Origin: a virus
Reading direction: 5' to 3' (one strand)
DNA length: 22,255 nt
IMG/VR virus record: IMGVR_UViG_3300048835_000909
Location: 1-22,255 of that record
A program made the position numbers and the translations under genes. Shown piece after piece: positions 4,290 to 22,122 of the stretch. Numbering within the stretch: position 1 is the first letter of the stretch; each line of letters opens with the position of its first letter. The notes below the pieces were generated by a model, which saw nothing but the letters and a program-made list of their open reading frames with translations, was not told the origin of the DNA and searched no databases.

Positions 4290-4888
4290 CCACCGCACAT
4301 ACCGACAAGCCGCTCGAGGAGACGCTGCGCTTCAGCCTCGACGATCCGGTCGCGATCGACATCGCGTATTGCGACCTCGTGCACGCGCGCGAGCCCAACC
4401 CCAACGGACCCTTCGAGCTCCGCATCCGCGGCACGCGGCAGCCGGATGCGGTGGCGGTGCGCGGCTTCATCCCGCTGCTGCAGGTGGAAGGGTCGCTCCT
4501 GCACTGCGGTGCCCTCACGCAGCCGCTCAACCCGGCACTGCTCCGCTCCGCGGGGGAGCGGAGCCACTACGCCGTGCCGCTGGTGAAATGGGCGCTGACG
4601 TTCACGAAGCGCCGGAAGGGCAACGGCGAGTGGCGGTACGACGTCGCCGTCCGACGCGGCGGGGATCCCGAGGTGGATCTCCGGCACTACCTGCGCTGCC
4701 TGCGCGATGCGGCGGAGCACGCGTTGCCGGTACTCACCGCGCACGGCTTCGCGGTCGGCGCGGCCGAGGTGGTCAGCATTGCCGGCACGCTATTCGGCGC
4801 GCGGGTCTACCACGCGGCGCACCCGGCGTCGCAGCAGGCGACGGACCACACGCAGGATCACACACGGACGGAGGGGAGGGGACGATGA
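4286..4888 (+). CDS. hypothetical phage protein
   Basis: The 200-residue protein starts at GTG 4286 overlapping the previous stop (GTGA). It has mixed beta and helix character (ETLRFSLDDPVAIDIAYC; FELRIRGTRQPDAVAVRGF; YAVPLVKWALTFTKRRKG) and a His/Gln/Thr-rich tail (QQATDHTQDHTRTEGRG). It sits directly before the ParB-family gene, with a 4-nt overlap, so the two may be made together. No catalytic motif is seen. Confidence 0.65.
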   Translation: MTTAHTDKPLEETLRFSLDDPVAIDIAYCDLVHAREPNPNGPFELRIRGTRQPDAVAVRGFIPLLQVEGSLLHCGALTQPLNPALLRSAGERSHYAVPLVKWALTFTKRRKGNGEWRYDVAVRRGGDPEVDLRHYLRCLRDAAEHALPVLTAHGFAVGAAEVVSIAGTLFGARVYHAAHPASQQATDHTQDHTRTEGRGR

Positions 4889-6549
4889 GCAAGGGACGGG
4901 GAGGGAGTGCGGTGCTCGAGGAGCCGGCGGCTGATGAGGACGAGCGCCCCACGGTGCTCGGGGTTGCGCCGGATGCGGTGGCACGGCTGCACGCGAAGAT
5001 GCAGCTCGTGCACATCCCGCTGGAGCAGATCGCGGAGAGCCCGCTCAACACGCGCAAGCGCTTCAACGAGGCGACGCTGGCCGAGCTCGCGGAGTCGCTG
5101 CGCAGCGAGGGGCAGCTCACGCCGGCGCTGGTGCGGCCGCATGCGAGTGGCCACGGCATCTACGAGCTCGCGGCCGGCCACCGGCGCTACCGGGCCGCGA
5201 AGCTCGCCGGCCTGGCGACCCTGGCGGCGATGGTTCGTCCGATGGACGACGAGACGTTCCTCAAGGTGCTCACGATAGAGAACCTGCAGCGCGAGGACGT
5301 CCACCCGCTCGAGGAGGCGGACGGCTACGCGGAGCTCATCGAGGTCCTGCGGTACGACGTCGCCAAGATCGCGAGCTCCGTGGGCAAGTCCGAGCGCTAC
5401 ATCTACGACCGGCTCAAGCTGCGGACGCTCGCGCCGGAAGTGCGCGAGCTCTTCTTTGCGGGGCGCATCGAGTTGGCGCACGCGATCGAGCTCACGCGGA
5501 TTCCGCAGGCGGCGCAGCGCCTGGCCATCGATCCGCACAAGGGCGGACTGTGGGCGGTCGACCACGGCTCTGATTTCTCGCTCTTCACCGAGGACGACGA
5601 GGACTTCGACGACGAGTTCGATGACGATGCGGACGAAGGGAAGCCGCGCGCGCCGACGCCGGCGCAGCTCGAGCACCGCAAGCCGTCGAGCGTGCGTGAG
5701 CTGAAGAAGTGGATCCACGAGCACGTGCGCCTGGATCCCGCGGCCGAGCACCTGACGATGGACCTGCCAGAGACGGTGCAGGAGCTGCAGGCGGCCGCGG
5801 TGGATGCCGTGAAGGTCGTGGAGATCACGGAGCTCAACCACGTGCATCCCGATGCCCGCGGCGAGGGTCGCGTGCTGGGCCCGCGCTCGTGGAAGTGCGC
5901 GGACCCCAAGCGCAACGTGAAGGACTGCGAGCACGCGGTGCTCGGCGTCGTGGTGCTCGGCCCGGGGCAGGGGGCGGCGTTCAAGGTGTGCACGGCGAAG
6001 CAGAAGTGCCGCACGCACTGGGCGGAGGAGATCCGCGAAGCGGCCAAGCGCGCGAAGGCTGTGGTGACGGGGAACGCGCCGGCGGCCGCGGCGCCGAAGG
6101 AGAGTTCGTGGGATCGGGGGCAGCGACTCAAGAAGGAGTACAACGCCAAGGTCGCGCCGGCGCTCCCCGCGCTCCTGCGCGCGTTCGCGGCCGCGGTGAA
6201 GAAGGCCTCGCCGAAGCCGAAGGGTCCGCTCGAGGCGGTGCTGATCGCGCGCGCCGGGTACATCGAGCTTGAGATGCCGTCGAAGGCGGCCGAGGCGCTC
6301 GTGCCGCGCGGGAAGTCCGGAGACGACTTTATGCGCTGGCTCGCGATGGGGCACCTCGCGCGAGAGGTCGAGCTCTCTGAGCACGGCTATGTGCCGAACC
6401 TCCGCGTGGAACTGCCGAAGTTCGGCAAGCTCTTCGGGGTGGACGTGGAGAAGATCGTGAAGGCGGAGGTCGCGGCGCCGACGGTGAAGCCGTCGACCGC
6501 ATCGAGCAGCACCAAGAAGAAGGCCGCGAAGAAGAAGGCCGCGCGGTGA
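4885..6549 (+). CDS. parB: ParB/KorB-family partition-like protein (orphan)
   Basis: The 554-residue protein has a canonical ParB N-terminal CTPase domain. It begins with IPLEQIAESPLNTRKRF, has the nucleotide-binding GHRRYRAA (about 98-105) and the ENLQREDVHPLEEA box (about 132-145). A KorB-like helix-turn-helix follows (VAKIASSVGKSERYIYDRLK). Unusual parts come next: a strongly acidic stretch (EDDEDFDDEFDDDADEG), a cysteine cluster (C338, C348, C369, C375, H378) that could bind zinc, and a Lys/Ala tail (KKKAAKKKAAR) that could bind DNA. GGGGAGGGGACG precedes the ATG at 4885, an excellent ribosome-binding site; longer in-frame starts run into upstream genes. No ParA ATPase is encoded in the window. 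It may partition a plasmid-like prophage, silence or load on phage DNA, or act as a nuclease; the sequence does not decide. Confidence 0.9.
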   Translation: MSKGRGGSAVLEEPAADEDERPTVLGVAPDAVARLHAKMQLVHIPLEQIAESPLNTRKRFNEATLAELAESLRSEGQLTPALVRPHASGHGIYELAAGHRRYRAAKLAGLATLAAMVRPMDDETFLKVLTIENLQREDVHPLEEADGYAELIEVLRYDVAKIASSVGKSERYIYDRLKLRTLAPEVRELFFAGRIELAHAIELTRIPQAAQRLAIDPHKGGLWAVDHGSDFSLFTEDDEDFDDEFDDDADEGKPRAPTPAQLEHRKPSSVRELKKWIHEHVRLDPAAEHLTMDLPETVQELQAAAVDAVKVVEITELNHVHPDARGEGRVLGPRSWKCADPKRNVKDCEHAVLGVVVLGPGQGAAFKVCTAKQKCRTHWAEEIREAAKRAKAVVTGNAPAAAAPKESSWDRGQRLKKEYNAKVAPALPALLRAFAAAVKKASPKPKGPLEAVLIARAGYIELEMPSKAAEALVPRGKSGDDFMRWLAMGHLAREVELSEHGYVPNLRVELPKFGKLFGVDVEKIVKAEVAAPTVKPSTASSSTKKKAAKKKAAR

Positions 6550-6851: not shown

Positions 6852-7120
6852 ACACACTGACCCCGGCCGCGGATGCGGCCATGCCAGACTTCCTCTCGGA
6901 GTCCGAGCTGCGCGCGTACCTCAAGCTGGAGTCGGCGCGCAAGCGGAGCACCTGGTTCCGCGTGCGGCCGTTCTTCGCGCCGGCGCTCGTGACGTTGCCG
7001 ACCGGATCATCGCGCGGCCACCGGCTCTACGAGACGGCGAAGGTGCGCACGTTGCTCGCTGGGCGGCTCGAGGCCCGGACCCCGCTCGCCCGCGTCAAGT
7101 CGCTGCGGAAGGTCGGATGA
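6848..7120 (+). CDS. excisionase-like (AlpA/Xis-type) helix-turn-helix protein
   Basis: The 90-residue protein begins FLSESELRAYLKLES after a short leader. A beta-rich wing-like segment follows (RPFFAPALVTLPTGS), then RGHRLYETAKVRTLLAGRL. This order matches small winged-helix recombination directionality factors, in which a late basic helix reads RY...VRxxL. Its 3' end overlaps the integrase start by 4 nt (ATGA), which strongly supports an Xis role by context. The start is ATG 6848, overlapping the upstream stop. It should bind DNA near attP and favour excision. Identity by domain is moderate; by context, good. Confidence 0.65.
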   Translation: MNTLTPAADAAMPDFLSESELRAYLKLESARKRSTWFRVRPFFAPALVTLPTGSSRGHRLYETAKVRTLLAGRLEARTPLARVKSLRKVG

Positions 7121-8250
7121 GTCCCTATCGCAAGCAGGGGGAGCGCACCTGGTACCTCACGCTCGCGACCGGTGATGCGGCGCGGCCGTGGTACCGGATG
7201 AGCTCGGGCACGCGCGATCGCGCGACGGCCGAGCAGATGCAGAAGATGCTGGACCTGCTCGGCGTGCGCGGCCGGCGCGAGCTCTGGGTGCGCGACGCCC
7301 TGGTGGCGCGGCGGGTGCACGTGGGCACGGTCTACGACGCCTATGTGAGCGGCACGCTCGAGGCGCTCAAGGCGCAGCTCGCGGACGTCGACCTGGCGCC
7401 GGCGCTGGATCCGTGGGTGGCGACGCTCCGGGCGCGGGTGACAGACGGCACGTTCGCCGAGGAGAGCTTCCGCAAGTACGTGGCGCAGGTGCGCGTGCTC
7501 GTGGGGGCGGCGCTCTTCCGCACGGCCGTCACCGGGCCGGCGCTCAAGGCGCGGCTCGATGCGCTGCCGGGCTCCGGGACCAGCCGCCGTCGGCACGCGG
7601 CTGCGTGGATGAGCTTCCTCGACTACTGCGTGGAGACGGGGCTCCTGGTTGCGAACCCCCTCCGTGCGGTGAAGCTGCCCAAGGAGAACCGCGCGCGGGA
7701 GCGCTACGCGGAGTGGCCGCACGTGCTCCGGCTGCTGCATGCGATGCCTGAGGGCGTGCACCGCGCGTTGGCGGCGGTGCGCCACGGCGCGGGGCTCGAG
7801 ATGCAGGCGGCCCTCGCGATGCGGCGCCGCGATGTGGACCTGGAGACGCGCGTCGTGTGGGCGCACGGACGGAAGACGTCGCACCGGGACCGCCAGGCGA
7901 TCGTGCTCGACGAGGCGTGCTGGGCGATCTTCGCGGCGTACCTCCGCGACGCGCGCTTCATGCCGGAGGTCGAACTCTTCCCCGTGTCACACAAGGAGCA
8001 CGAGGTCGCGCAGCGCGAGGCGGCAGCGACGGTGCGCGCCGAGGGGGTGCCACTCCGCGACGGCTACACCCTCCACGATGCGCGGCATTCGTTTGCGGTG
8101 GAGATGGTACGTCGCGGCCACGAGGCCAAGCTGTTGTCGGCGAACCTGGGGCACGCCAACGAGGCGCTGCTGATGAAGCGGTATGGGAAGCATCGGCCGC
8201 GGGCCGAGGACCTGGTGCGCGCCGCGAAGCGCGCGGGAGGAGCGAGTTAA
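7117..8250 (+). CDS. int: tyrosine-recombinase integrase
   Basis: The 377-residue protein has an N-terminal arm-type domain (SPYRKQGERTWYLTLATG), a core-binding domain (about 105-185) and the catalytic domain. Visible catalytic residues are K253 (HGRKTSHRDR), H320 and R323 (HDARHSF), H346 (ANLGHAN) and Y356 (LLMKRYGKH). The usual first arginine of the TGLRxGE motif aligns with E228 (GAGLEMQAALAMRRRDVD), so this position is atypical. The gene ends 85 nt before a tRNA-Asn-like attP core. This is the standard place for an integrase, so the enzyme most likely integrates the phage at a host tRNA-Asn gene. The ATG at 7117 overlaps the xis-like stop. Confidence 0.95.
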   Translation: MSPYRKQGERTWYLTLATGDAARPWYRMSSGTRDRATAEQMQKMLDLLGVRGRRELWVRDALVARRVHVGTVYDAYVSGTLEALKAQLADVDLAPALDPWVATLRARVTDGTFAEESFRKYVAQVRVLVGAALFRTAVTGPALKARLDALPGSGTSRRRHAAAWMSFLDYCVETGLLVANPLRAVKLPKENRARERYAEWPHVLRLLHAMPEGVHRALAAVRHGAGLEMQAALAMRRRDVDLETRVVWAHGRKTSHRDRQAIVLDEACWAIFAAYLRDARFMPEVELFPVSHKEHEVAQREAAATVRAEGVPLRDGYTLHDARHSFAVEMVRRGHEAKLLSANLGHANEALLMKRYGKHRPRAEDLVRAAKRAGGAS

Positions 8251-10911: not shown

Positions 10912-12102
10912 GTGTACGCAAAACTCTCATCGACCATCACGCGCTCGAGCATCTGGCGCGAGCCCCCGGCCACGCGGGTCGTCTGGATCGCGCTGCTCGC
11001 GCTGGCGAACAAGGACGGCTTCGTGAAGGGCGTCGAAGCCTGGTTGGCCAGCGAGGCCAATGTGGAGCGTAGCGAGTGCCGCGAGGCGCTCGAGACGTTC
11101 ATGTCGCCGGACCCGGAAAGCCAGGATCAGGACTATGGCGGTCGCCGACTCGAGAAGGTCGAGGGTGGCTGGCTGGTGCTCAACTACAAGAAGTACCGCG
11201 ATATGCGGACGACGGAGCAGGTGTTGGCCGCTGAGCGTCAACAGCGGAAGCGTAAGCGGGATAAAGGCTTAGACGACTCCGGTGACGTTGGTGTTGAGGA
11301 AGTCACGGCTTGTCACGTGACGTCACGCGACGTCACGACAATTGTCTCTGCTTCTGCATCTGCACCTGCCGTTGTCTCTGCTTCTGCTCCAAAACCGCGC
11401 GCGCGCGCACGAAGCGCGGCCGTGGAGCGTGAGCCTGCGCCGGACGAGGCTGCGGGCAGCGCACCACCGCGGCCCGCTGGCGGTGCACAAACCGCGGGCG
11501 CTGCACAAACGGGCTCGCCACCGCTCTTCGACCGCTTCCAGCATGCGTCGCACCGCGATGCGTACGCCGCGATGCGGTCGGCACACCGCCTGCCGGCAGC
11601 GCTCGACGCCGCCCTGCGTGACATCGCCGAGCCGGTGAACGGCGGACCGGCGTACACCTGGGACGAGATTGGCGGCGCGCTGCTGCAGGTGCTCGGCAAC
11701 GGCGAGACGTTCAACGCGGCCCGATGCCGCGGTTACTGCCGCAGCATCCGGGCGGCGCTGGTATCGCAGGGCCATACGCCGCGACCATCGGCTCGAGGCG
11801 CGGCCACCGCGGTCTCGCCGGCCACCGCGGAGATCGGGGGCACGGCGTGGTCCGCGGCGGACGTCTGGGATCTCTGCGTGCGGAGCGGGCTTGCGAGTCC
11901 GATGCAGTCCCGGGAGGCGCTCGAGGAGCGGGTGCGCACGCTCAAGGCCGACGGGAAGATCCACGACGAGGACGCCTTTCTCTCGCTCGTGCTGCACGTC
12001 CAGCCCTGGGCGCTCGCGGAGATACGCTTCGACCGCACGCGTGAGGAGCGTCTTGCAGCCGCGGTGGCGACGTGGACACCGGCCACGGAGGCTGCACGAT
12101 GA
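10912..12102 (+). CDS. phage replication initiator-like protein
   Basis: The 396-residue protein opens with YAKLSSTITRSSIWREPPAT and WIALLALANKDGFVKGVEAW. A wing-like end follows (RRLEKVEGGWLVLNYKKYRD). This N-terminal winged-helix domain is common in phage replication initiators and helicase loaders. A linker (about 125-190) is low complexity (VSASASAPAVVSASAPK) and contains the repeats at 11302-11337. The C-terminal half is helical (AAMRSAHRLPAALDAALRDI; WSAADVWDLCVRSGLASPM). The start is GTG 10912; its ribosome site is weak. The next gene is a DnaB helicase with a 4-nt overlap, so the likely job is origin binding and helicase loading, as for lambda O or P22 gp18. Confidence 0.75.
   Translation: MYAKLSSTITRSSIWREPPATRVVWIALLALANKDGFVKGVEAWLASEANVERSECREALETFMSPDPESQDQDYGGRRLEKVEGGWLVLNYKKYRDMRTTEQVLAAERQQRKRKRDKGLDDSGDVGVEEVTACHVTSRDVTTIVSASASAPAVVSASAPKPRARARSAAVEREPAPDEAAGSAPPRPAGGAQTAGAAQTGSPPLFDRFQHASHRDAYAAMRSAHRLPAALDAALRDIAEPVNGGPAYTWDEIGGALLQVLGNGETFNAARCRGYCRSIRAALVSQGHTPRPSARGAATAVSPATAEIGGTAWSAADVWDLCVRSGLASPMQSREALEERVRTLKADGKIHDEDAFLSLVLHVQPWALAEIRFDRTREERLAAAVATWTPATEAAR
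11302..11337 (+). repeat. four 10-bp in-phase repeats, candidate origin iterons
   Basis: GTCACG occurs at 11302, 11312, 11322 and 11332, exactly 10 bp apart, so all copies face the same side of the helix. Overlapping palindromes GTCACGTGAC and GTGACGTCAC are also present. The period is not a multiple of three, so it is not a by-product of a protein repeat. A pyrimidine-rich, lower-GC stretch follows (11341-11390). They lie inside the initiator gene. Confidence 0.6.
11342..11387 (+). repeat. pyrimidine-rich direct repeat next to the iterons
   Basis: TTGTCTCTGCTTCTGC occurs at 11342-11357 and again at 11372-11387, 30 bp apart. It encodes repeated VSASA and is in frame, so it may reflect the protein linker; its lower GC and strand bias would also suit an unwinding region. 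Confidence 0.45.
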
Positions 12103-13565
12103 CCGCCACGCCGATGCCGCGAGATGTTCCACGCGACACACCTACAACGCCGTATGTCTCTACCACGGGGCAACACGGCGCGCTGTGGAGCGAGGACGCC
12201 GAGCGCGCCGTGCTCGCCGCGATGCTGATCAGCCCCGTGCAGGCCGCAGTGATTGCCCGTGAGCTCCAGGACAGCCACTTCTACCGCGGCGCCCACCGGG
12301 CGCTCTTCCAGGCGATGCGCGCCCTGCTCGCCGCGGACGTGGTCATCGACCCCGTCACGCTCGCGAACCAGCTGCAGGCCGCAGGACGGCTCGAGGCCGC
12401 CGGGGGGAAGGAGGCGATTGGCGGCCTCTACGACGAGATCCCGACCGCCGATCACGCCGCGCACCACGTCGGCATCCTCCGTGACTTCGCCGCGCGCCGT
12501 GAGACCGTGCAGCTCGCCGCGCAGCTCGCGCGCAGCGCACGCGACCTCTCGGTGCCACTGCAGGCGACGCTCGACGCCGGCAGCCGCGCAATGTTGCGCC
12601 AGGTCTCGGGGACCGGCGAGCAGGGCTTCCGGCCGATCAAGGCCGGCGTCTGGGATGCCGTGTCGCGCATCGAGCAGCGGCAGGCCGGCACGGCCCCCGT
12701 TGGCCTCGCCAGTGGGTGGCCGGAGCTCGACGACCGCCTGCATGGCGGGATCGAGCCGGGTTCGCTCGTCGTCGTGGTCGGCGTGCCATCGAGCGGGAAG
12801 ACCTCGCTGGTCTGGAATCTCCTCTGCAACGTCGCGGTCGAGTCGGGCGCGGCCACGGCGATGGTCTCCGCCGAGATGAAGGAGGAGATGCTCATCGAGT
12901 CCGCGTTCGCCGCGCACGGCGACATCGCCCGGCAGCACATCAAGACGGGCGACCTGGAGCGAGACGAGATCGCGAAGCTCGCGCGCGCCGCGGGTACGCT
13001 GGCGCAGGCGCCGATCTGGATCGACGACACCGTGATGCCGGATGTCGAGGACGTCGTGAACCGCTGCGTGCTGCTGAAGACGCAGCGCCCCGACCTGTGC
13101 GCCGTGGGCGTCGACTTCATCCAGCTCCTGCAGCTGCGCGACAAGGACCGCGGCGAGCTCCACGAGACGACGCTGCGCAAGATTGCGTACCAGCTCAAGG
13201 GGCTCGCGCTCCGGCTGAACATCGTCGTCTTCGCACTCGCGCAGCCAAACGACAAGCAGATCGAGGACCGCCCGGACAAGCGCCCGCAGCTCCGTGACAT
13301 CCAGGGCTCGTCAGGCATCCGGCAGGCCGCCGACGTGATCGGCCTCATCTATCGCGATGGCCTCTACAACTCCTCCTCGAACGACCCGACGCTCGAGGTC
13401 AACCTCGCGAAGAACAAGTTCGGGCCCACGGGGCTCGCTAAGCTCACCTGGGAGGGCTCCTACGTGCGCGTCACAAGTCCGCGCCGTCGGCAGCTTGAGC
13501 TCGAGGCAGAGCGCGCGCGAAACACGCCACTCAACCTGCTCGAGACTGGAGGGCACGCCGAATGA
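12099..13565 (+). CDS. dnaB: replicative DNA helicase, DnaB family
   Basis: The 488-residue protein has the two-domain plan of DnaB. The N-terminal helical domain contains DAERAVLAAMLISPVQ, AVIARELQDSHFYRGAHRAL and AIGGLYDEIPTADHAAHHV. The C-terminal RecA-fold ATPase opens with LASGWPELDDRLHGGIEPGS. Walker A is GVPSSGKTS with K234. The acidic SAEMKEEM, the Walker B-like CAVGVDFIQLL and the IQGSSGIRQAADV motif follow in the usual order. The ATG at 12099 overlaps the initiator stop; an in-frame GTG at 12072 is less likely. The phage thus brings its own helicase and would need only a host primase and polymerase. No primase is seen nearby. Confidence 0.95.
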   Translation: MTATPMPRDVPRDTPTTPYVSTTGQHGALWSEDAERAVLAAMLISPVQAAVIARELQDSHFYRGAHRALFQAMRALLAADVVIDPVTLANQLQAAGRLEAAGGKEAIGGLYDEIPTADHAAHHVGILRDFAARRETVQLAAQLARSARDLSVPLQATLDAGSRAMLRQVSGTGEQGFRPIKAGVWDAVSRIEQRQAGTAPVGLASGWPELDDRLHGGIEPGSLVVVVGVPSSGKTSLVWNLLCNVAVESGAATAMVSAEMKEEMLIESAFAAHGDIARQHIKTGDLERDEIAKLARAAGTLAQAPIWIDDTVMPDVEDVVNRCVLLKTQRPDLCAVGVDFIQLLQLRDKDRGELHETTLRKIAYQLKGLALRLNIVVFALAQPNDKQIEDRPDKRPQLRDIQGSSGIRQAADVIGLIYRDGLYNSSSNDPTLEVNLAKNKFGPTGLAKLTWEGSYVRVTSPRRRQLELEAERARNTPLNLLETGGHAE

Positions 13566-14029
13566 GGTCCACGCTCAACGGCATCACGCTCGGCCCGAAC
13601 TCACCGGCGCGCACGGTGCGACTCAATCGGCCGGAGAAGGACGAGCAGCAGCTCGGCGACGACTTCATCACCAGGCTCGAGGGCGAGGTAATCTCGCTGT
13701 CGCAGACCCGCGAGTCGCAGGTGCACGAAGGGCTGCCTGATCGACGCTATCGCGTCTTCGGCGTGGCCTTCTGGTGGGAGTGGAAAGCCGAGAACGGCAA
13801 GCTCTCGCGGTCGCAGCATGTCTTCCTGCAGCGCGAGATGGACTGCTTCTGCTTCGGCGGCGTCGGCGTGTTCGAGGACCTGGAGGCATTCGTCCGTGTC
13901 GTCAGGTCGAGCCGCTTGGCCAACGATGCGCAGTTGCTGAGCAGGCACTGCACGTCGCTGCTGGCTCGATGGGTCGCCAAGGGATACCGAAGCGAGACGC
14001 GGCCCCGGGGCCGGAGGGGCCGGCGATGA
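13562..14029 (+). CDS. VRR-NUC-type PD-(D/E)xK nuclease
   Basis: The 155-residue protein has the compact VRR-NUC pattern: an N-terminal helix with E28, then GLPDRRYRVFGVAFWWEWKA with D60 and E73-x-K75, then GKLSRSQHVFLQREMDCFCF. These are the residues of the PD-(D/E)xK active site, and the size fits phage enzymes that cut branched DNA or nick DNA ends. The start ATG 13562 overlaps the dnaB stop. Placed between replication and packaging, it may resolve branches before packaging or assist recombination. A basic tail (RPRGRRGRR) may bind DNA. The family assignment is by motif only. Confidence 0.75.
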   Translation: MRSTLNGITLGPNSPARTVRLNRPEKDEQQLGDDFITRLEGEVISLSQTRESQVHEGLPDRRYRVFGVAFWWEWKAENGKLSRSQHVFLQREMDCFCFGGVGVFEDLEAFVRVVRSSRLANDAQLLSRHCTSLLARWVAKGYRSETRPRGRRGRR

Positions 14030-14802
14030 GATACGACGTGCGCACCAACGTCGATGAGCTCATCAAGGACTTCGGCACGATGCAGATGAAGCAGGCACCG
14101 TGGGCGGTGAAGTGGGCCTCCAACGCCGCGGTCGCCGATGCCGCGGACAAGGTGACGCTCCAGATGACTCGCAGCTTCAGCGCGGGCCCGCGCGGCATGC
14201 GGTGGATTCACCGTCATGTGAAGGCGATGAACGTGGGCGCGCGGCTGGCGCGAGAGTACGGTGGCCAGGGCGGGGCGGCACTCGGCATCATTCCGCCGGG
14301 AGGAGCGAAGGTGGCAGCGTGGGAGCGCTACCGCGGATCGCTCGTGGCCACGATGGAGCGCGGTGGTGCGACACCCGGACCACGCCGGTTCGGCGGGGCG
14401 CTCGGCGGCTCCGGGCCGATGAGCGACTTGGGTCGATACCCGATCCCCATCCGGCGGCCTGGGCACCCGGAGCCCTACCCCCGCTCGATGTATCCCATCA
14501 ACCTCGGTCTGTCCGCGCGTACGGGCATCGCCACGCGCACGGTCGGTGGCGCGTTGCGCGGCAAGCGCCGCACCTACCTCGTGCCGATGCTCAACAATCG
14601 CGGCACGTCGATGATCTTCCAGCGGTTCGGCAAGGAGCGCGACGCGACGATGCCGATCTTCTGGGTGCAGCGCGAGACGCGCGTGCCGGCACGCCCCTAC
14701 TTCTTCGACACTGCGCAGCGCTCGATGGCGCAGCGCTTCCCCATCCACTTCGCGCACGCGATGGAACAGGCGCTCTTCGGACGCGGGGCGTACCGTGGGT
14801 GA
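14026..14802 (+). CDS. putative neck or tail-completion protein
   Basis: The 258-residue protein starts at ATG 14026 overlapping the previous stop. The N-terminal helix (VDELIKDFGTMQMKQAPWAV) is followed by a KWASNAAVADAADKVTLQM stretch, and the end reads VPARPYFFDTAQRSMAQRFP. The RPYF...A pattern near the C-terminus is like HK97 gp10-type neck and related minor tail proteins, though this copy is longer than most. A large central segment (100-200) rich in Gly/Pro/Arg is unusual. It lies before the terminase, not after the capsid gene, where such proteins normally are. Function is a moderate-to-weak call. Confidence 0.5.
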   Translation: MRYDVRTNVDELIKDFGTMQMKQAPWAVKWASNAAVADAADKVTLQMTRSFSAGPRGMRWIHRHVKAMNVGARLAREYGGQGGAALGIIPPGGAKVAAWERYRGSLVATMERGGATPGPRRFGGALGGSGPMSDLGRYPIPIRRPGHPEPYPRSMYPINLGLSARTGIATRTVGGALRGKRRTYLVPMLNNRGTSMIFQRFGKERDATMPIFWVQRETRVPARPYFFDTAQRSMAQRFPIHFAHAMEQALFGRGAYRG

Positions 14803-15002
14803 AGTGCTTCGCGTGTCCGCGCACCGTGGCTTCGAGGGGCAGACGCCCCGCGACGGCACGACTGCCGCGTTGGCGGGGGTAGGTACTTCCCGGCATATAA
14901 GCGACGCGGGGTCCGATGACCGCGACATTCATGTGGGTCCGAGCTCACAAATATTCGGCTTCCGTACCCATCGGCCACGCCGTGATGGCGTGATGGCAGC
15001 GG
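14803..15002. other. 200-bp gap before terminase: candidate cos/promoter region
   Basis: No convincing gene is present. The stretch contains AT-rich islands (TATAAG at 14896-14901; ACAAATATTC around 14947-14956), a direct repeat GGGTCCGA (14909-14916 and 14935-14942) and a small hairpin CACGCC-GTGAT-GGCGTG (14976-14992). In lambda, cos lies at exactly this place, just before the small terminase gene. No promoter with both boxes well placed is seen. Confidence 0.4.
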
Positions 15003-15770
15003 GTGGCCGTGGCGACTGAGCTCGCGCCGTCGGAGTTCGCCGCCGCGATCGGCGTGAAGTCGGACGACCTGGCCGCGCTGGAACGCGCCGGCCTGCCGTT
15101 CGTGAATCGGAAGAAGCATGGCCACGCCTATCCGCTGCCGGCGGCCATCAAGTGGTACGTCGAGCACGCGATCGCGACGCGCGTCGGTGGGATCCCGCCG
15201 CGCACCACGCAGAAGGAACTCGCGGCGCTCGTCGGCTACACGCCGCGCACGCTGTCGAATCTCGTCGAGGAAGGCAAGCTCAAGACCGTGGTCGAGAACG
15301 GCCGCCGACTCTATCCGCTCCCGGATTGCGTGCACCAGATCATCGAGCATCGCGAGTCCCAGGCGCGAGGGAAGGCCGGCGAGAAGCTGACCGCGCTCGA
15401 CGAGGCGACACTCCGCGAGAAGCTGGCGAAGGCGGAGTCGGCGGAGCTGACGCTGATGGAGCGGCGCGGCGAGCTGCTCGCCCGGCCGCTGGTCGAGCGC
15501 GCGCTCGCGGACCTGATGCAGGGACTGAAGGCGCAGCTCGTCCAGTTCGCCCCGCGCTATGAGGCCGACCTCATCGGGCTCGACACCCGCGTCAAGGTGC
15601 GCGCCGTGCTCAAGCCGGCGATGCACGCCGAGCTCCTGCGACTCGGCGCCGCCGGCGCCCAGGTCGGCCGCCGGATCCAGATGATCGACGCGACGGTCGA
15701 GCGCGACGAGGACGATGAGTCGAACGCCACCGACACGGAGGAGCCTGATGCTCGTCGCCACGCATCCTGA
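15003..15770 (+). CDS. terS: terminase small subunit (Nu1-like)
   Basis: The 255-residue protein has two helix-turn-helix units: LAPSEFAAAIGVKSDDLAAL at the start, and TQKELAALVGYTPRTLSNLV with KLKTVVENGRRLYPL (about 70-100). A coiled-coil-like region and a conserved ERRGELLARPLVERALADL segment follow, the latter typical of phage DNA-packaging small terminases. It recognises the packaging site and recruits the large subunit. The GTG at 15003 gives the full N-terminal domain. The 3' end overlaps the large subunit gene by 23 nt if that starts at 15748. Confidence 0.85.
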   Translation: MAVATELAPSEFAAAIGVKSDDLAALERAGLPFVNRKKHGHAYPLPAAIKWYVEHAIATRVGGIPPRTTQKELAALVGYTPRTLSNLVEEGKLKTVVENGRRLYPLPDCVHQIIEHRESQARGKAGEKLTALDEATLREKLAKAESAELTLMERRGELLARPLVERALADLMQGLKAQLVQFAPRYEADLIGLDTRVKVRAVLKPAMHAELLRLGAAGAQVGRRIQMIDATVERDEDDESNATDTEEPDARRHAS

Positions 15771-17709
15771 GGCGCAGCGGCTCTTCGGCGTCTCGATCGA
15801 GCAGATGGCGCAACGGATCCTGCAGCCACCGCCGGACCTCAAGCTCAGCGACTGGGCCGAGCAGCATCGGATCCTCGCGAGCCAGGCCTCGGAGAAGGGG
15901 CCCTATAGGCTGTCGCGCGTGCCGTACCTGCGCGAGATCCTGGAGGAGTTCTCGAATCCCGAAGTCCGCGAGATGGTGATCCTCAAGTCGGCGCGCCTCG
16001 GCGTGACCGACGGCGTGATCAACAACGGCGTGGGCTACTGCATCGACCAGGACCCGGGCAACATCCTCGTCGTCTGGCCGACGAAGGAGGACGCGCAGGA
16101 GTGGTCGAAGGAGACGCTCCCCGAGCTCTTCGAGCTGACGACCTGCCTGCGTGGCAAGGTGGCGGACGCCGAGCTGCGGAGCAGCGACAACACGATCCTG
16201 CACAAGCGCTTCGCCGGCGGCTTCCTCACGGCGATCGGCTCCAACAGCCCGCGCGCGCTGCGCCGACGCAATGCGCGCTACGTGTTCGTGGACGAGTACG
16301 ACGCCCTCGACGAGAAGGCCTCCTCGCAGGAGGGCGACGTGGGCCGGCGCGCGGCGCGACGCGCGGACGCGAGCCCGGACGCGAAGATCGTCTTCACCGG
16401 ATCGCCGCGCGGCCGCCGCAGCCGGATCATCCGCGACTACCTCAGCTCCGACCAGCGTGAGTACTTCGTGCCGTGCCCGCACTGCAACCACCTGCAGCCG
16501 CTGACGTGGGACCGCGTACAGTGGGAGAAGAAGAAGGATCCGAAGACGGGCAAGACGATCGAGCACTTCCCGCAGACGGCGCACTATCTCTGCCGCAGCT
16601 GCGAGACGCCGATCCGCGAGGGGCGCGAGAAGCGCACGATGATCGAGCGCGGCGAGTGGATCGCGAAGAAGCCGGGCGCGAGCGTGCGCGGATGGAAGAT
16701 CACCACGCTCTATTCGCTCTTCGTGACGTGGGGGGCACTCGCCGAGCAGCGGATCAAGGCGAAGCGCGCGCTGCAGTCGGGCGACGCGGACCTGATGGTG
16801 GAGTTCTACCAGCAGGTGCTCGCGGAGTACTTCGAGGCGCAGCTCGACAAGCCGGACACCGCGGCCCTGGCGGCGCGCCGCGAGACCTACGCGGCCCCGG
16901 TGCCCGCCGGCGTCGGGGTGCTGACGGCTGCGGTCGACGTGCAGGACGATCGCATCGAGCTGCTGGTGAAGGGGTGGGGCGTCGGGCAGGAGTCGTGGGA
17001 CATCGCGCACCATCGCATCTATGGCGATCCGGAGCAGCCCGACGTGTGGCGCCGCCTGGACCTGCTGCTCTTCAAGCCGTTCGCGCACGAGCTTGGCGGC
17101 GAGCTCCGCGTGCGCTGCACGCTCGTCGACTCGGGGCACAAGGCCGAGACGGTCTACAAGTACACGCAGCGTCGGCGCGCGCTCGGCGTGTGGCCGGTGA
17201 AGGGCGAGCCGACGAAGCGTGGTCGCCCGCTCCTCGCGATGTCGAAGGCCGCCGCGGTAAAGGACCGACTCTGGCTCGTCGACGAGGCGCGGCTCAAGAT
17301 GACGATCCTGCGCCGGCTGCGGATCGAACTGCCACCTGGCGCGACCGGTGCCGCAGGCTACATCCACTTCCCGGCGGCACAGAACGACGGGCTCGACGAC
17401 GACTACCTGAGCCAGTTCGAGAACGAGGTGATGGTGCCGAAGCAGCGGCCCGATGGCACGACATCGTTCGAGTGGAAGACGCTGGGCCCGAACGAGGCAA
17501 TCGACCTGCAGAAGTACGCGCTCGCGGCGCTGCACGTGCTCGGCGATGCGGTGGTCAACAACCTCGGCCACTGGGTGGAGCGCGCGGCCGGCGCCGGGCG
17601 CGTGGCCGGCGGACCACGCGCGGCGCGCGCCGTGCAGGAGACGACCGCGGCGCAGGCAACGCCGAAGAAGAAGCCCCGGAGCCGGATCCGGCACCGGGGG
17701 ATCGATTGA
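15748..17709 (+). CDS. terL: terminase large subunit, GpA family (lambda A-like)
   Basis: The 653-residue protein is the packaging ATPase/nuclease. It opens with SIEQMAQRILQPPPDLKLSD and has a deviant Walker A K80-SARLGVTD, like the KSARVGYSK of lambda gpA. Walker B is YVFVDEYDA (D182, E183). A zinc-binding pair set follows (C243/C246, C282/C285; CPHCNHLQPL ... CRSCETPI), a GpA feature. The RNase H-like nuclease domain begins at AAVDVQDDRIEL (D397). The tail is basic (KKKPRSRIRHRG). I chose ATG 15748 because GGAGGAG lies 5 nt upstream; an alternative ATG at 15715 adds 11 residues. Its stop overlaps a TTG start for a regulatory gene, not gpW as in lambda. Confidence 0.95.
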   Translation: MLVATHPEAQRLFGVSIEQMAQRILQPPPDLKLSDWAEQHRILASQASEKGPYRLSRVPYLREILEEFSNPEVREMVILKSARLGVTDGVINNGVGYCIDQDPGNILVVWPTKEDAQEWSKETLPELFELTTCLRGKVADAELRSSDNTILHKRFAGGFLTAIGSNSPRALRRRNARYVFVDEYDALDEKASSQEGDVGRRAARRADASPDAKIVFTGSPRGRRSRIIRDYLSSDQREYFVPCPHCNHLQPLTWDRVQWEKKKDPKTGKTIEHFPQTAHYLCRSCETPIREGREKRTMIERGEWIAKKPGASVRGWKITTLYSLFVTWGALAEQRIKAKRALQSGDADLMVEFYQQVLAEYFEAQLDKPDTAALAARRETYAAPVPAGVGVLTAAVDVQDDRIELLVKGWGVGQESWDIAHHRIYGDPEQPDVWRRLDLLLFKPFAHELGGELRVRCTLVDSGHKAETVYKYTQRRRALGVWPVKGEPTKRGRPLLAMSKAAAVKDRLWLVDEARLKMTILRRLRIELPPGATGAAGYIHFPAAQNDGLDDDYLSQFENEVMVPKQRPDGTTSFEWKTLGPNEAIDLQKYALAALHVLGDAVVNNLGHWVERAAGAGRVAGGPRAARAVQETTAAQATPKKKPRSRIRHRGID

Positions 17710-18044
17710 CCCTCGGTCATCCCCTCGTCGACGCCGCGCTCGCGGATCTGCGGCTCACGCCGGTCGACCTGAACGTGTTCCGCGTGCTCTGGGGTCAGCT
17801 CGACTTCGAGCGGTTCGTCGAGAAGAAGTCCGACGTGCTTGGCATCGAAGTCGGGTGCAATCCGAGCTATGCGGCCGCCTCGCTACGGAAACTGGTGGAG
17901 TTTGGCTACATCGAGGCGGGTGATCGTGCCGAGAAGGGCGTTGGTACATATCGACTTCCGCGCGCGCTGCCTCTGGTTGTGACTACTTTCACACGGTCTG
18001 TCGCACCGCGCAGAACGCGCCGCCAAGTGCGGGACTCTCTATAG
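17706..18044 (+). CDS. small winged-helix DNA-binding protein between terL and gpW
   Basis: The 112-residue protein begins at TTG 17706, overlapping the terL stop (TTGA); the rare start suggests low production. Its core is a winged helix: LTPVDLNVFRVLWGQLDFER, then NPSYAAASLRKLVEFGYI and the wing GVGTYRLPRALP. The C-terminal 30 residues are basic (RSVAPRRTRRQVRDSL) and include the sequence LVVTTFTRS, which is encoded by the first copy of a 26-bp repeat (17972-17997). Lambda has no regulator between A and W. The protein might bind the repeated dyad and autoregulate or control the head genes. The fold is a fair call; the role is inferred. Confidence 0.65.
   Translation: MTLGHPLVDAALADLRLTPVDLNVFRVLWGQLDFERFVEKKSDVLGIEVGCNPSYAAASLRKLVEFGYIEAGDRAEKGVGTYRLPRALPLVVTTFTRSVAPRRTRRQVRDSL
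17972..17997. promoter_or_regulatory. 26-bp repeat with CRP-type dyad, copy 1
   Basis: Contains TGTGA-CTACTT-TCACA, a perfect 5-bp inverted repeat with a 6-bp centre, the form of CRP/FNR-family sites. The full 26 bp recur exactly at 18088-18113, while flanks differ. This copy lies inside the 3' end of the winged-helix gene. Confidence 0.6.
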
Positions 18045-18195
18045 ATGCGAAACGCCGGAAACTGACGCGCGCGCAGCGGGTGCGACGTCTGGTTGTGACT
18101 ACTTTCACACGGTTCGCTGGTAGAGACTCTTGTTCGCGTCCGCCCGCTAGACGACCCTGCGCCCTGTTCGATGAGCCCACGCTCTCCGAGGCGCG
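18045..18195. other. intergenic region before gpW, carrying repeat copy 2
   Basis: The 151-bp gap is unusual inside a packaging operon that otherwise overlaps gene by gene. It holds the second 26-bp repeat and no clear gene. A TGGTAGAGA (extended -10-like) lies just after the repeat, but no good -35 is found. GAGG (18188-18191) is the likely ribosome site of the next gene. Confidence 0.55.
18088..18113. promoter_or_regulatory. 26-bp repeat with CRP-type dyad, copy 2
   Basis: Exact second copy of 17972-17997, centred about 96 nt before the gpW-like start. The copies are 116 bp apart, i.e. about eleven helical turns, which would allow a regulator to bridge them. Confidence 0.6.
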
Positions 18196-18411
18196 ATGTC
18201 ACTCGAAATCAAGCAGGCGCAGCTCGCATCGGTCCGGTCCGCGATCAACACGATCGAGACCGGCGCGCAGTCCGTCACGGTGCTCGGTCGCAATTACACG
18301 CGCGCCACGCTGCAGAGCCTGTACGACCGCGAGCGCCAGCTGGAGCAGGACATCGCCCGGCTTGAGCGTGGCGGATCCCGGATGCGGCTCGGGGTGCCGA
18401 CGTCGCGATGA
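18196..18411 (+). CDS. gpW-like head-tail connector protein
   Basis: The 71-residue protein matches the small lambda gpW/connector type: an N-terminal helix (LEIKQAQLASVRSAINTIE), a short strand region (QSVTVLGRNYT), and a C-terminal helix (RATLQSLYDRERQLEQDIAR). It stabilises the filled head and joins it to the tail. Its position immediately before the portal gene, with a 4-nt overlap, is the lambda arrangement (W then B). The start is ATG 18196 with GAGG upstream. Confidence 0.8.
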   Translation: MSLEIKQAQLASVRSAINTIETGAQSVTVLGRNYTRATLQSLYDRERQLEQDIARLERGGSRMRLGVPTSR

Positions 18412-20099
18412 TCGACGGCTTCCAGCCCACCTCGCTCTCGCCGCGCCGCGCGCGCGGCGCCGCCGGCATCTACCGCATCGGCGGCGGCTTCGAGGGTGCG
18501 AGCGGAAACCGCCGCGCCACGCAGGACTGGCCGATCCTTGATGGCGGGCCGAACACCGACACGCTCGGCGACCTGCCCGCGCTCCGGGCCCGCTCACTCG
18601 ACCTTGAACGCAATGCGCCGCTCGCGACCGGTGCCTTCAACACGCAGCTCCGCGACGTGCTCGGCGACGGCCTCGTGCCGAAGCCGCGGCTCGACCGCGA
18701 GTATCTGGGCCTGAGCTCCGAGGACGCGGCCGCGTGGTCGCGCCATGCGATGCGCATCTGGTGGCAGCACGCCGGCTCGACGCGCCTCGACATCGCGGGC
18801 CGCCTGCACTTCTCCGAGCTGCAGCGCCAGGCGCTCTTCTCGGCGCTCTCGGGCGGCGACGCCTTCGCGCTCTTCCGGTACCGCGTGGATCCGGGCGACC
18901 TGCTCGGCACCAAGGTCCAGCTGCTGGAGGCCAATCGCTGCTCCCAGCCCGACACGAAGGTGGAGACCGTGCTCTTCCGCGACGGCGTGGAAGTCACCAC
19001 GGACGGCGTCGTCCAGCGGTACTGGTTCTCCAACCGGCACCCGAACGAGCGCTATCTCGTCCCCGGTGGGATCCTCACGTGGGAATCGACGCCGGCGCGC
19101 GATGCGTCCGGCTATCCGCTCGTGCTGCAGCTCATCGACCAGAAGCGGCCGGGACAGCTGCGCGGGATCCCGTACCTCGCGCCCGTCATCGAGACGCTGA
19201 AGAACCTCACACGCTTCAGCGAGGCCGAGCTGATGGCGGCCGTCGTGAGCTCGATGTTCACGGTGTTCATCAAGGGCGGCTTCGCTCCCGGACTCGCCGA
19301 GCTCGATGCCGACGATCCGTCGCCGAAGGGACAGATCAAGCTCGGGACCGGCGCGGTCGTCGACCTCGGTGCGGAGGAGTCCGTCGAGTTCGCGAACCCG
19401 ATGCGCCCGAACTCGCAGTTCGAGCCCTTCTTCCAAGCGATGTGCGAGCAGCTCGGCTCGGCGCTGGAGATCCCGCGCGAGCAGCTGGTCAACTCCTTCC
19501 AGGCCTCCTACTCGGCCAGCCGCGCTGCGTTGCTCAACGCGTGGCGCGCCGTCCGCACGCGCCGCAGCTGGTTCGTGAACCAGTTCTGCCAGCCGATCTA
19601 CGCGCGCGTCATCCGCGAGGCGATCGCGCGCGACCTGCTGTCGGCACCGGGGTTCCTGGATGATCCGATCGCACAGGCCGCGTGGCTGGGCTGCGAGTGG
19701 ACCGGTCCGTCGATGCCGGAGATCGATCCGGTCAAGGCGGTGGTCGCGGCCGGCATGCGCGTGAAGGAAGGCTTCTCGACGCGCGAGCGCGAGTCGGCCG
19801 AGCTCACGAGCTCCGACTACGACGAGAACTTCGAGCAGCGCGTGGTCGAGGAGACGCGCCGCCGCGCGGCCGGGCTCGACGTCGAGGATTCGGCGGAGCG
19901 TGGGCGCGTCGAGCCGATCGAGCCCGAGCAGCCCGGCGAGCCCGGAGGCGAGGGGTCTGACACCGACGACGAGCAGTCGCCGGCGCGGCGCGCACGCCGG
20001 GGCCGCCGCGCGGCCAGTGCGGTGCGGCACGCGCACGAAGAGACCGTCAGCCGCGCGTTCGCGCACGCCCCCGACTCCGACCTGGAGACCGTCTCGTGA
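18408..20099 (+). CDS. portal protein, lambda gpB family
   Basis: The 563-residue protein is a lambda-type portal. It has LDLERNAPLATGAFNTQLRD, WWQHAGSTRLDIAGRLHFSE, SGGDAFALFRYRVDPGDLLG and YLVPGGILTWESTPARD in the family order. The conserved ALEIPREQLVNSFQASYSAS and RAALLNAWRAVRTRRSWFV segments follow. The portal is a dodecameric ring at one head vertex through which DNA is packaged. The tail (about 470-563) is acidic then Arg-rich (ARRARRGRRAAS), and variable in the family. The length agrees with lambda B (533). The start overlaps the gpW stop, and the stop overlaps the protease GTG. Confidence 0.95.
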   Translation: MIDGFQPTSLSPRRARGAAGIYRIGGGFEGASGNRRATQDWPILDGGPNTDTLGDLPALRARSLDLERNAPLATGAFNTQLRDVLGDGLVPKPRLDREYLGLSSEDAAAWSRHAMRIWWQHAGSTRLDIAGRLHFSELQRQALFSALSGGDAFALFRYRVDPGDLLGTKVQLLEANRCSQPDTKVETVLFRDGVEVTTDGVVQRYWFSNRHPNERYLVPGGILTWESTPARDASGYPLVLQLIDQKRPGQLRGIPYLAPVIETLKNLTRFSEAELMAAVVSSMFTVFIKGGFAPGLAELDADDPSPKGQIKLGTGAVVDLGAEESVEFANPMRPNSQFEPFFQAMCEQLGSALEIPREQLVNSFQASYSASRAALLNAWRAVRTRRSWFVNQFCQPIYARVIREAIARDLLSAPGFLDDPIAQAAWLGCEWTGPSMPEIDPVKAVVAAGMRVKEGFSTRERESAELTSSDYDENFEQRVVEETRRRAAGLDVEDSAERGRVEPIEPEQPGEPGGEGSDTDDEQSPARRARRGRRAASAVRHAHEETVSRAFAHAPDSDLETVS

Positions 20100-21709
20100 G
20101 TGACCGACCGGCATTGAAGGTGCTGCAGCTCCTCACCTCGACGCGGTGGGCCATCACGCGCGAGGCGCTGGAGCGCATGGTTGCCATCGCGGAGCGCGAC
20201 ATCGACCGCCTGATGGCGATGCTGGAGTCGCGCGCGTCGGCCGTCGGCACGATGACGCCGCGCGCCGGCGAGGATGATGACGACGGCGTCGATCTTCTGG
20301 CGGCGCCCGAGGATGCGCCGCGCCGCTGGGCGTTGCTCTCGCGTCCCGCCACCTCGCACGCGCAGAGCGAGACGCTCGGCGTGCGCGACGGCGTGGCCAT
20401 CGTCTCCGTCGTCGGTCCGCTCTGCCGCTACGCCTCGTTCTTCCAGGAGATCTGCGGCATGTCGAGCTATCAGCTCATCGCCGAGGACTTCCGGATTGCG
20501 ATGGATGATCCGGCGGTGCGCGCGGTGATGGTGCACCTCGACTCCCCCGGCGGCGAGACCAACGGCTGCGCCGAGCTCGCGGCCATGATCCACGCGCGCC
20601 GCGGCGAGAAGCCGATCGTCGCGATGGTCTCCGATGGCGCCGCGAGCGCCGCCTACTGGATCGCGGCGGCGTGCGACGAGATCGTCGTGTCGCCGTCTGC
20701 CTATGTGGGCTCGATCGGCGTCTACTTCGAGATCCACGACTTCAGTGCGGCCGAGGCCGCGGCCGGCATCAAGCGCTGGCGGATCGTGAGCTCGGTCTCG
20801 CCCAACAAGGTGCCCGATCCTGCGGACGCGGCCGGCAAGGCGGTGCTGCAGCGCGAGGTCGACGAGTTCGCCGACGCATTTGTCGAGGCCGCCGCGTCGT
20901 ATCGCGGCATGACGGTCGAGGCACTCATCGGCGCCGGCGACGGCGGCGCGGTCAGCATCGGGCGTCACGCCGTCGCCAGCGGTCTCGCGGACCGCGTGTC
21001 CACCACGGAAGCAATGCTGGCCGAGCTCGCGGTTCGCGCGACGACGCCGTCCACCACGCCGCGCGGTGCGCGCGGCGCAGCCCAGGAGAGCGCAATGCCC
21101 AAGCAGCAGAAGCCCGCCGTGCCCGTCGCCAGTGCGTCCGACGATCCCTCGAAGGACAAGGACGAGGAGGCGCGCCGCGCCGAGGAGAAGGAGAAGGAAG
21201 AGGAAGCGGCGCGCCGCGCCGCCGAGAACGGCGACGGGCCCGCGGACGACGAGCAGGACGAGGCCGAGGCCGAGTACGACGAGGATGAGGACGAGGCCGA
21301 GGCCGAGGAAGAGACCGACGAGGAGAAGAAGGCGACGCGCGCGTTTGCGGCCCGTCACTCCGCGATGGTGAAGCGCATCCGACGCAACGCCCGCATCGGC
21401 GCGCGGAAGGCCGAGCGCGCGCGCGTCGCGGCCGTGATCGCGCTCGCGCCCAAGGCGATCGCGCCGGCGCTGCGCTCGGCGCTCGAATCCGGCCAGAGCG
21501 AGGGCGAGGCCGCGAAGGCGTTCCTCCAGGCCAGCCAGAAGTCCGGCACCACGGTGCTGGCCGCGATGGCCGGTGCCGAGGCGACGCTCGTCGCGCCGGT
21601 GCACGGCGATGGCACGCCGACCGCCGAGAAGGAAGGCGCCGCGACGATCTCGCTCCTCGAACAGCACAGCCCGAAGCAGCGGCGGCGCGCGGACGCCCGC
21701 CTCAACTGA
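20096..21709 (+). CDS. S49-family head maturation protease (lambda gpC-like) with scaffold region
   Basis: The 537-residue protein has an N-terminal SppA-type S49 domain (about 90-320): VMVHLDSPGGETNGCAELAA, then the nucleophile region MVSDGAASAAYWIAAACDEI with S184, and SPNK with candidate K238. The C-terminal region (after about 334) is highly charged (EEEAARRAAENGDGPADDEQ; EAEEETDEEKKATR) and then helical, as expected of a fused scaffold. The GTG at 20096 overlaps the portal stop. As in lambda C/Nu3, the protease domain should cleave the scaffold and other head proteins during capsid maturation. Confidence 0.9.
   Translation: MSDRPALKVLQLLTSTRWAITREALERMVAIAERDIDRLMAMLESRASAVGTMTPRAGEDDDDGVDLLAAPEDAPRRWALLSRPATSHAQSETLGVRDGVAIVSVVGPLCRYASFFQEICGMSSYQLIAEDFRIAMDDPAVRAVMVHLDSPGGETNGCAELAAMIHARRGEKPIVAMVSDGAASAAYWIAAACDEIVVSPSAYVGSIGVYFEIHDFSAAEAAAGIKRWRIVSSVSPNKVPDPADAAGKAVLQREVDEFADAFVEAAASYRGMTVEALIGAGDGGAVSIGRHAVASGLADRVSTTEAMLAELAVRATTPSTTPRGARGAAQESAMPKQQKPAVPVASASDDPSKDKDEEARRAEEKEKEEEAARRAAENGDGPADDEQDEAEAEYDEDEDEAEAEEETDEEKKATRAFAARHSAMVKRIRRNARIGARKAERARVAAVIALAPKAIAPALRSALESGQSEGEAAKAFLQASQKSGTTVLAAMAGAEATLVAPVHGDGTPTAEKEGAATISLLEQHSPKQRRRADARLN
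21095..21709 (+). CDS. nested in-frame scaffold protein (Nu3-like)
   Basis: Inside the protease gene an in-frame ATG at 21095 follows AGGAG (21084-21088) by 6 nt, an ideal ribosome-binding site. It would yield a 204-residue protein beginning MPKQQKPAVPVAS and containing the acidic and helical scaffold region only. Lambda makes Nu3 in this way from within gene C. The start lies exactly at the junction between the protease domain and the scaffold, which strongly supports it. Confidence 0.7.
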   Translation: MPKQQKPAVPVASASDDPSKDKDEEARRAEEKEKEEEAARRAAENGDGPADDEQDEAEAEYDEDEDEAEAEEETDEEKKATRAFAARHSAMVKRIRRNARIGARKAERARVAAVIALAPKAIAPALRSALESGQSEGEAAKAFLQASQKSGTTVLAAMAGAEATLVAPVHGDGTPTAEKEGAATISLLEQHSPKQRRRADARLN

Positions 21710-21747: not shown

Positions 21748-22122
21748 ATGACGAATCCCAACTTTTCCACCGCCACCAGCCCGGCGCCCGATCCGCTCAT
21801 CGCGGGCGAGTTCCCCCGGGTCACCACCGAGGTGACGATCTCCTCGGGCCAGAACCTCGCGCGCGGCGCCGTGGTCGGCCGGATCACCGCGACCGGCGAG
21901 TACGTCCTCTCGGCCTCCGCCGCCGGCGACGGCTCGCAGACGCCCGTCGGAATCCTGGTGCAGGACACCGACGCGACCGCTGGCGACACGAACGCCTCGA
22001 TCTACCGCACCGGCGAGTTCAACGAGGACGAAGTGATCCTCGGCGCCGGCCACACGATCGCCTCGATCCGCGACGGCCTGGAGGCCAAGCAGATCTACCT
22101 GAAGTCCACCCTTCCGCACTGA
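21748..22122 (+). CDS. head decoration protein, lambda gpD-like
   Basis: The 124-residue protein matches gpD in size (lambda D is 110) and features: a disordered N-terminus, then GEFPRVTTEVTISSGQNLAR, GAVVGRITATGEYVLSASAA, and TPVGILVQDTDATAGD. It binds the expanded capsid as trimers and stabilises it. GGAG lies upstream of ATG 21748. It stands between the protease/scaffold gene and the major capsid gene, as in lambda (C-Nu3-D-E). Confidence 0.9.
   Translation: MTNPNFSTATSPAPDPLIAGEFPRVTTEVTISSGQNLARGAVVGRITATGEYVLSASAAGDGSQTPVGILVQDTDATAGDTNASIYRTGEFNEDEVILGAGHTIASIRDGLEAKQIYLKSTLPH

Follow-up and report, generated by a model that had tools for sequence, protein, structure and literature searches.

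Operators of the CRP/FNR superfamily, such as those of E. coli CRP and of actinobacterial CRP/GlxR, have the consensus TGTGA-N6-TCACA, and the actinobacterial CRP/GlxR proteins are known to bind it. The gal operators OE and OI are twin operators that form a loop. In lambda, the R sites of cosB are repeated sites near the terminase genes, and the terminase small subunit (TerS) has a helix-turn-helix (HTH) (PMC4856287). The DNA analyzed here, referred to as the window, is a phage record of 22,255 bp in which two identical copies of a CRP-type dyad lie between packaging and head genes.

The repeat pair and its genome setting

The original prediction of two exact 26-bp copies, each containing TGTGA-N6-TCACA, was confirmed: TCTGGTTGTGACTACTTTCACACGGT is present as R1 at 17972-17997 and as R2 at 18088-18113. 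The copies had been described as 116 bp apart, which is correct from start to start but not as the gap between them, which is 90 bp. The setting in a packaging operon was also borne out, with genes for a terminase large subunit (TerL), a gpW-like connector, a portal, an S49 protease and a lambda-D-like decoration protein. As proposed, R2 lies in the gap before gpW, and the gpW-like start codon is 82 bp past its end. The features of the window are the following:

36-473, HigA-like repressor
4885-6549, ParB-like protein with ParB HTH
7117-8250, tyrosine integrase
12072-13565, DnaB-like helicase
15003-15770, plus strand, terminase small subunit (phrog_57), two tandem HTH-like units
15715-17709, plus strand, terminase large subunit of lambda gpA type (PF05876, E 2e-70; PF20454, E 8.6e-68)
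17706-18044, plus strand, small ORF of 112 aa whose TTG start overlaps the terminase stop; codon signal up to about 17969
17970-18195, no strand, stretch without coding signal that includes R1 and R2 (codon log-odds scan)
17972-17997, no strand, repeat copy R1, TCTGGTTGTGACTACTTTCACACGGT, with the dyad TGTGACTACTTTCACA at 17978-17993
17998-18087, minus strand, 90-bp middle, a long imperfect hairpin on the bottom strand
18000-18007, plus strand, left arm GTCGCACC of a perfect 8-bp inverted repeat, 2 bp inward of R1
18079-18086, minus strand, right arm GGTGCGAC of the same perfect 8-bp inverted repeat, 1 bp inward of R2
18088-18113, no strand, repeat copy R2, identical to R1, with the dyad at 18094-18109
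18196-18411, plus strand, gpW-like head-tail connector (phrog_118, E 1.6e-10)
18408-20099, plus strand, portal protein of the lambda family (PF05136, E 1.1e-83)
20096-21709, S49-type protease
21748-22122, lambda-D-like decoration protein

At 26 bp, R1/R2 exceeds every other exact direct repeat in the record; the maxima in 100 first-order Markov shuffles were 14-19 bp. TGTGA-N6-TCACA occurs in the record at R1 and R2 only, and in none of 100 dinucleotide shuffles. By our own estimate, a match to the CRP consensus is expected about 0.004 times per record of such composition. The repeat has a GC content of 46% and the record one of 70%. The dyad by itself, with its 5-bp arms, is a modest feature; an exact repeat combined with a CRP consensus match in a 70% GC record is beyond chance. 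Each dyad is also part of an extended motif, TGTGAC-N5-TCACACGG, which reads in the direction of the genes. No third copy of R was found in the record with up to three mismatches allowed, and the other R-like matches there were no better than 15/26, which is within chance.

R1 had been placed in the 3' end of a winged-helix gene. It is formally inside ORF 17706-18044, but the coding signal of this ORF, +0.93 bits per codon up to 17969, is followed by an anti-coding signal of -0.98. R1 is thus at or past the true end of the gene. The codon log-odds scan found no coding-like frame from there up to 18195, which places both repeats in about 226 bp of non-coding sequence. The product had been called a winged-helix protein from its appearance; Pfam, NCBIfam and PDB sequence searches did not confirm this. 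Its one weak match was to phrog_8102, a replication-initiation family (E = 0.079), and an AlphaFold model was of low confidence (mean pLDDT 58.5) and gave no informative structural match.

An 8-bp inverted repeat as near to both edges of the middle segment as the one listed above had a frequency of about 0.1% among dinucleotide shuffles and 0.14% among the record's 90-bp windows. Folding of the middle was significant for the bottom strand (z about -2.6 to -2.9) and not for the top strand (z -0.8 to -1.2). An Rfam search of the repeat region gave no match, and no tRNA was detected.

Elsewhere in the record, the terminase small subunit apparently carries two tandem Nu1-like HTH units, since it has two phrog_57 stretches and its halves align with each other (E 9e-5). 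The ParB-like protein and the DnaB-like helicase co-occur with a tyrosine integrase in this phage. The scanned ORFs of the record included no CRP-family gene.

Relatives of the window phage and an unrelated locus

Queries with single proteins (TerL, portal and the small ORF) recovered no close relatives, and the nearest loci from alignment and motif queries were at most about 40% identical. TerL similarity tilts weakly toward Pseudomonadota. A search for the 26-mer in related phages, which had been proposed originally, was negative: TGTGA-N6-TCACA was present in 0 of 50 records of terminase relatives, which total about 1.7 Mb and the nearest of which shares only about 40% identity in TerL, and the 26-mer core had no match in the other viral contigs and genome contigs. 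The whole unit of repeats and middle had no further copy in viral contigs, genome contigs, and phage and plasmid collections. A degenerate 26-mer query returned three single matches, which were chance-like.

In lambda-type relatives, the junction between terminase and gpW/portal is a variable slot for accessory genes, of about 0-2.8 kb. Repeats of the R1/R2 kind are rare at this junction, and most relatives lack them. A different repeat is found in L084 (5866-6130), where 24-bp exact direct copies of TATGTTAAACAAAAAGGAGTCAAA, 241 bp apart, lie between terminase and portal and include a ribosome-binding-site-like AAGGAG.

An arrangement like that of the window was seen in L241 (60% GC), a short contig unrelated to the window phage. 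Its pair of dyads, spaced 111 bp, occupies exactly the terminase-portal junction, and the first dyad overlaps the terminase stop codon. Both are TGTGAC-N5-TCACACGG and are oriented with the genes, as in the window. Among 319 loci, this extended motif was present besides L241 only in L182, which was itself selected by pattern, and in L184. L241 is the best outside evidence that the arrangement in the window is non-accidental, but it is a single post hoc case.

The extended motif was also considered as a host-wide element in 695 bacterial genomes. Among the matches listed, there were three in 346 Actinomycetota and three in 349 Pseudomonadota genomes, and the reversed control gave two and five, respectively, in the same genomes. 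Since the motif was no commoner than its control, this idea was rejected for those genomes.

Dyads in other uncultured phages

Viral contigs were scanned for two TGTGA-N6-TCACA dyads 85-115 bp apart. This gave at least 119 loci from phages unrelated to that of the window, chosen for having such pairs. The 119 listed loci held 488 dyads with a 6-bp spacer, which is partly a selection effect (two per locus) and leaves some 250 extra, and 0-4 dyads with spacers of 3, 4, 5, 7, 8, 9 or 10 bp. Many records among the matches listed are rich in dyads, with 5-15 each clustered within a few kilobases, and the dyads are mostly intergenic in phages with the genome-wide type. Dense non-coding arrays of 5-12 dyads were seen at L242:11623-11754, which has an exact 29-bp period, L202:6247-6434, L236:10769-10956 and L256:1026-1663; these look like an origin, a centromere or a multi-operator region. 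WhiB-like proteins are encoded in seven dyad-pair loci, and a protein of one dyad-rich phage matches Streptomyces phage proteins at about 50% identity; actinobacteria are therefore probable hosts for some of these phages. Of the named actinophages related to the dyad-rich phages, 2 of 10 have the dyad.

After dereplication, 271 dyads from 93 loci were used to examine promoter offsets. Downstream sigma70 promoters were concentrated at four distances from the dyad center to the start of the -10 element: 41.5 (19 cases), 52.5 (18), 62.5 (11) and 72.5 bp (13), compared to a background of about 1-4 cases. The TTCACA of the dyad resembles a -35 element; this led us to discount another peak at 24.5-26.5 and also blurred a simple Fourier test of the offsets, which leaves the four peaks above as the basis for helical phasing. 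Our literature search found no paper describing these promoter-linked dyads in the phages concerned (L183-L301). In the window, no sigma70 promoter-like site was found in 13500-20500 with the sigma70 consensus, from which the host's promoters may differ. The sole -10-like hexamer, TATAGA at 18040-18045, is without a -35 element and starts 54.5 bp from the center of R1, missing the recurrent phage offset by 2 bp.

The largest protein cluster beside the dyad pairs, among the matches listed, is the terminase large subunit phrog_38. At least 22 loci have a pair 101-125 bp apart that precedes a phrog_38 terminase by about 330-600 bp, with fast-diverging flanks. The pairs in L201, L209, L220, L222, L230, L234, L239, L249, L252, L262 and their relatives lie in non-coding DNA upstream of this terminase, and the same regions contain further conserved blocks, TTTCTGTTATA and TGTTCGGTTT...TTTGAACAGGTT. 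Perhaps this type of region is a late promoter or a cos region.

The dyads of the window are unusual in their spacer, CTACTT with a central AC, whose score falls within the bottom 2% of 265 phage dyads; their flanks are ordinary (82nd percentile of the same set). Among 295 dyad pairs of other phages, the six spacer bases are identical in 37 and a run of at least 26 bp is shared in 6. Operator pairs elsewhere thus rarely share the spacer or 26 bp, and the exact identity in the window fits a copying event. The identity had been taken originally as the sign of a selected binding site; these counts indicate copying at least as much.

Explanations and comparison with known systems

Our tentative explanation, to which we give somewhat less than even chances, is that R1/R2 is a duplicated CRP/FNR-type operator in the late-gene gap. 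The regulator, a dimer, would most likely come from the host. Upstream of the putative operator are the packaging genes (TerS, TerL and the small accessory ORF), and downstream of it are those for the head (gpW, portal, protease and decoration). The second copy would have come from copying of the whole 26-bp segment. Bound dimers would be 11 helical turns apart (116/10.5 = 11.05) and could act on head-gene transcription by activating a promoter invisible to the sigma70 consensus scan or by looping. The CRP-type reading of the original prediction is upheld in part. It is supported by the rarity of the dyad (two in the 22 kb of the window, none in the 50 relatives), the position of the pair in sequence that lacks coding signal, the spacer-specific and promoter-linked dyads, the terminase-adjacent pairs and L241. 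The lack of an in-register sigma70 promoter, the atypical N6, the 26-bp identity and the absence of a CRP-family gene from the scanned ORFs argue against it.

The strongest competing explanation sees in the repeats a functionless trace left by recent micro-duplication or by a small insertion. A 116-bp unit (the 26-bp R and the 90-bp imperfect palindrome) would have come to be flanked by two copies of R in the accessory slot behind the terminase, and the dyad would be a coincidence. We consider this possible but somewhat unlikely. It would account for an identity that covers all 26 bp, spacer and flanks included, which is unusual for operator pairs, and for the start of R1 where the coding signal of the small ORF collapses. 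The inverted repeat adjoining the inner edges of both copies and the variable junction of the relatives, most of them without such repeats, also fit. However, no other copy of the unit was found in the viral and genome contigs or the phage and plasmid collections, a 26-bp target duplication is atypical for known small elements, and both the CRP consensus match and L241 are left unexplained. The dyad fits any symmetric dimer, and DNA-binding proteins are encoded nearby, so the operator could instead be that of a phage-encoded regulator acting on the late genes: the product of ORF 17706-18044, which ends at R1, or the HigA-like or ParB-like protein. Since the dyads are confined to R1/R2, with no copy otherwise near any of these three genes, and the fold of the small ORF product is unconfirmed, this is improbable.

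Two explanations do not involve transcription. R1/R2 could be putative sites for the terminase small subunit, by analogy to the R sites of lambda cosB. The adjoining terminase genes, the HTH units of the small subunit and the dyad pairs beside terminase genes in other phages are consistent with this, but terS lies 2.2 kb upstream of the repeats, and in Lily, among the closest named relatives, the genome end is placed upstream of terS. Upstream of terS in the window there is no R-like repeat, the best dyad match having two mismatches, which is within chance, and the dyads of many other phages are spread across kilobases. A packaging role is therefore quite improbable. Very improbable is a pair of core sites for a tyrosine recombinase, with inverted arms around a 6-bp overlap and an excisable 116-bp segment. 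The 26-bp direct repeats do have inverted 5-bp arms around a 6-bp center, and the record encodes an integrase, but arms of just 5 bp are short for this, no second cassette is present and no R-like sequence was found near the integrase gene.

Returning to the host-regulated operator, a broader form of it may be considered, which we regard as doubtful. Pairs of CRP-type dyads, spaced about 100-125 bp and placed where the packaging/head block begins, would be a regulatory device that recurs among uncultured phages whose terminases are unrelated, and the host's cAMP/CRP (or GlxR-like) state would gate the late switch. The window would be a GC-rich case with a pair copied from one 26-bp site. If a host CRP-family regulator binds the sites, head-gene expression would report the nutrient state of the host. 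This would be a simple link from host physiology to the burst, and the phages with dyads near terminase genes would make the question general beyond one phage.

Compared to known systems, the locus is similar to CRP/FNR operators in its exact TGTGA-N6-TCACA core and its non-coding position ahead of a gene block. It differs from them in lacking an in-register sigma70-type promoter, in its atypical N6 and in having copies identical over 26 bp. As at lambda cosB, there are repeats near terminase genes and an HTH-bearing TerS; in contrast to cosB, the repeats are downstream of terL, there are two copies only and no cosN-like site was seen. MITE-type elements have terminal inverted repeats, as the 8-bp GTCGCACC/GGTGCGAC pair provides here, and more copies in the same or other genomes, which were not found. 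The dyad pairs of the uncultured phages L183-L301, some of which bear WhiB, have a similar gap of 85-115 bp, and many adjoin terminase genes. Their GC content is mostly 37-47% compared to 70% for the window, their terminase families are different, and their spacers usually differ between copies, unlike the identical spacers of the window. Finally, the window is without the demonstrated promoter between the sites and the known repressor of gal OE/OI, but like that pair, R1 and R2 are two similar operator-like sites about 11 helical turns apart.
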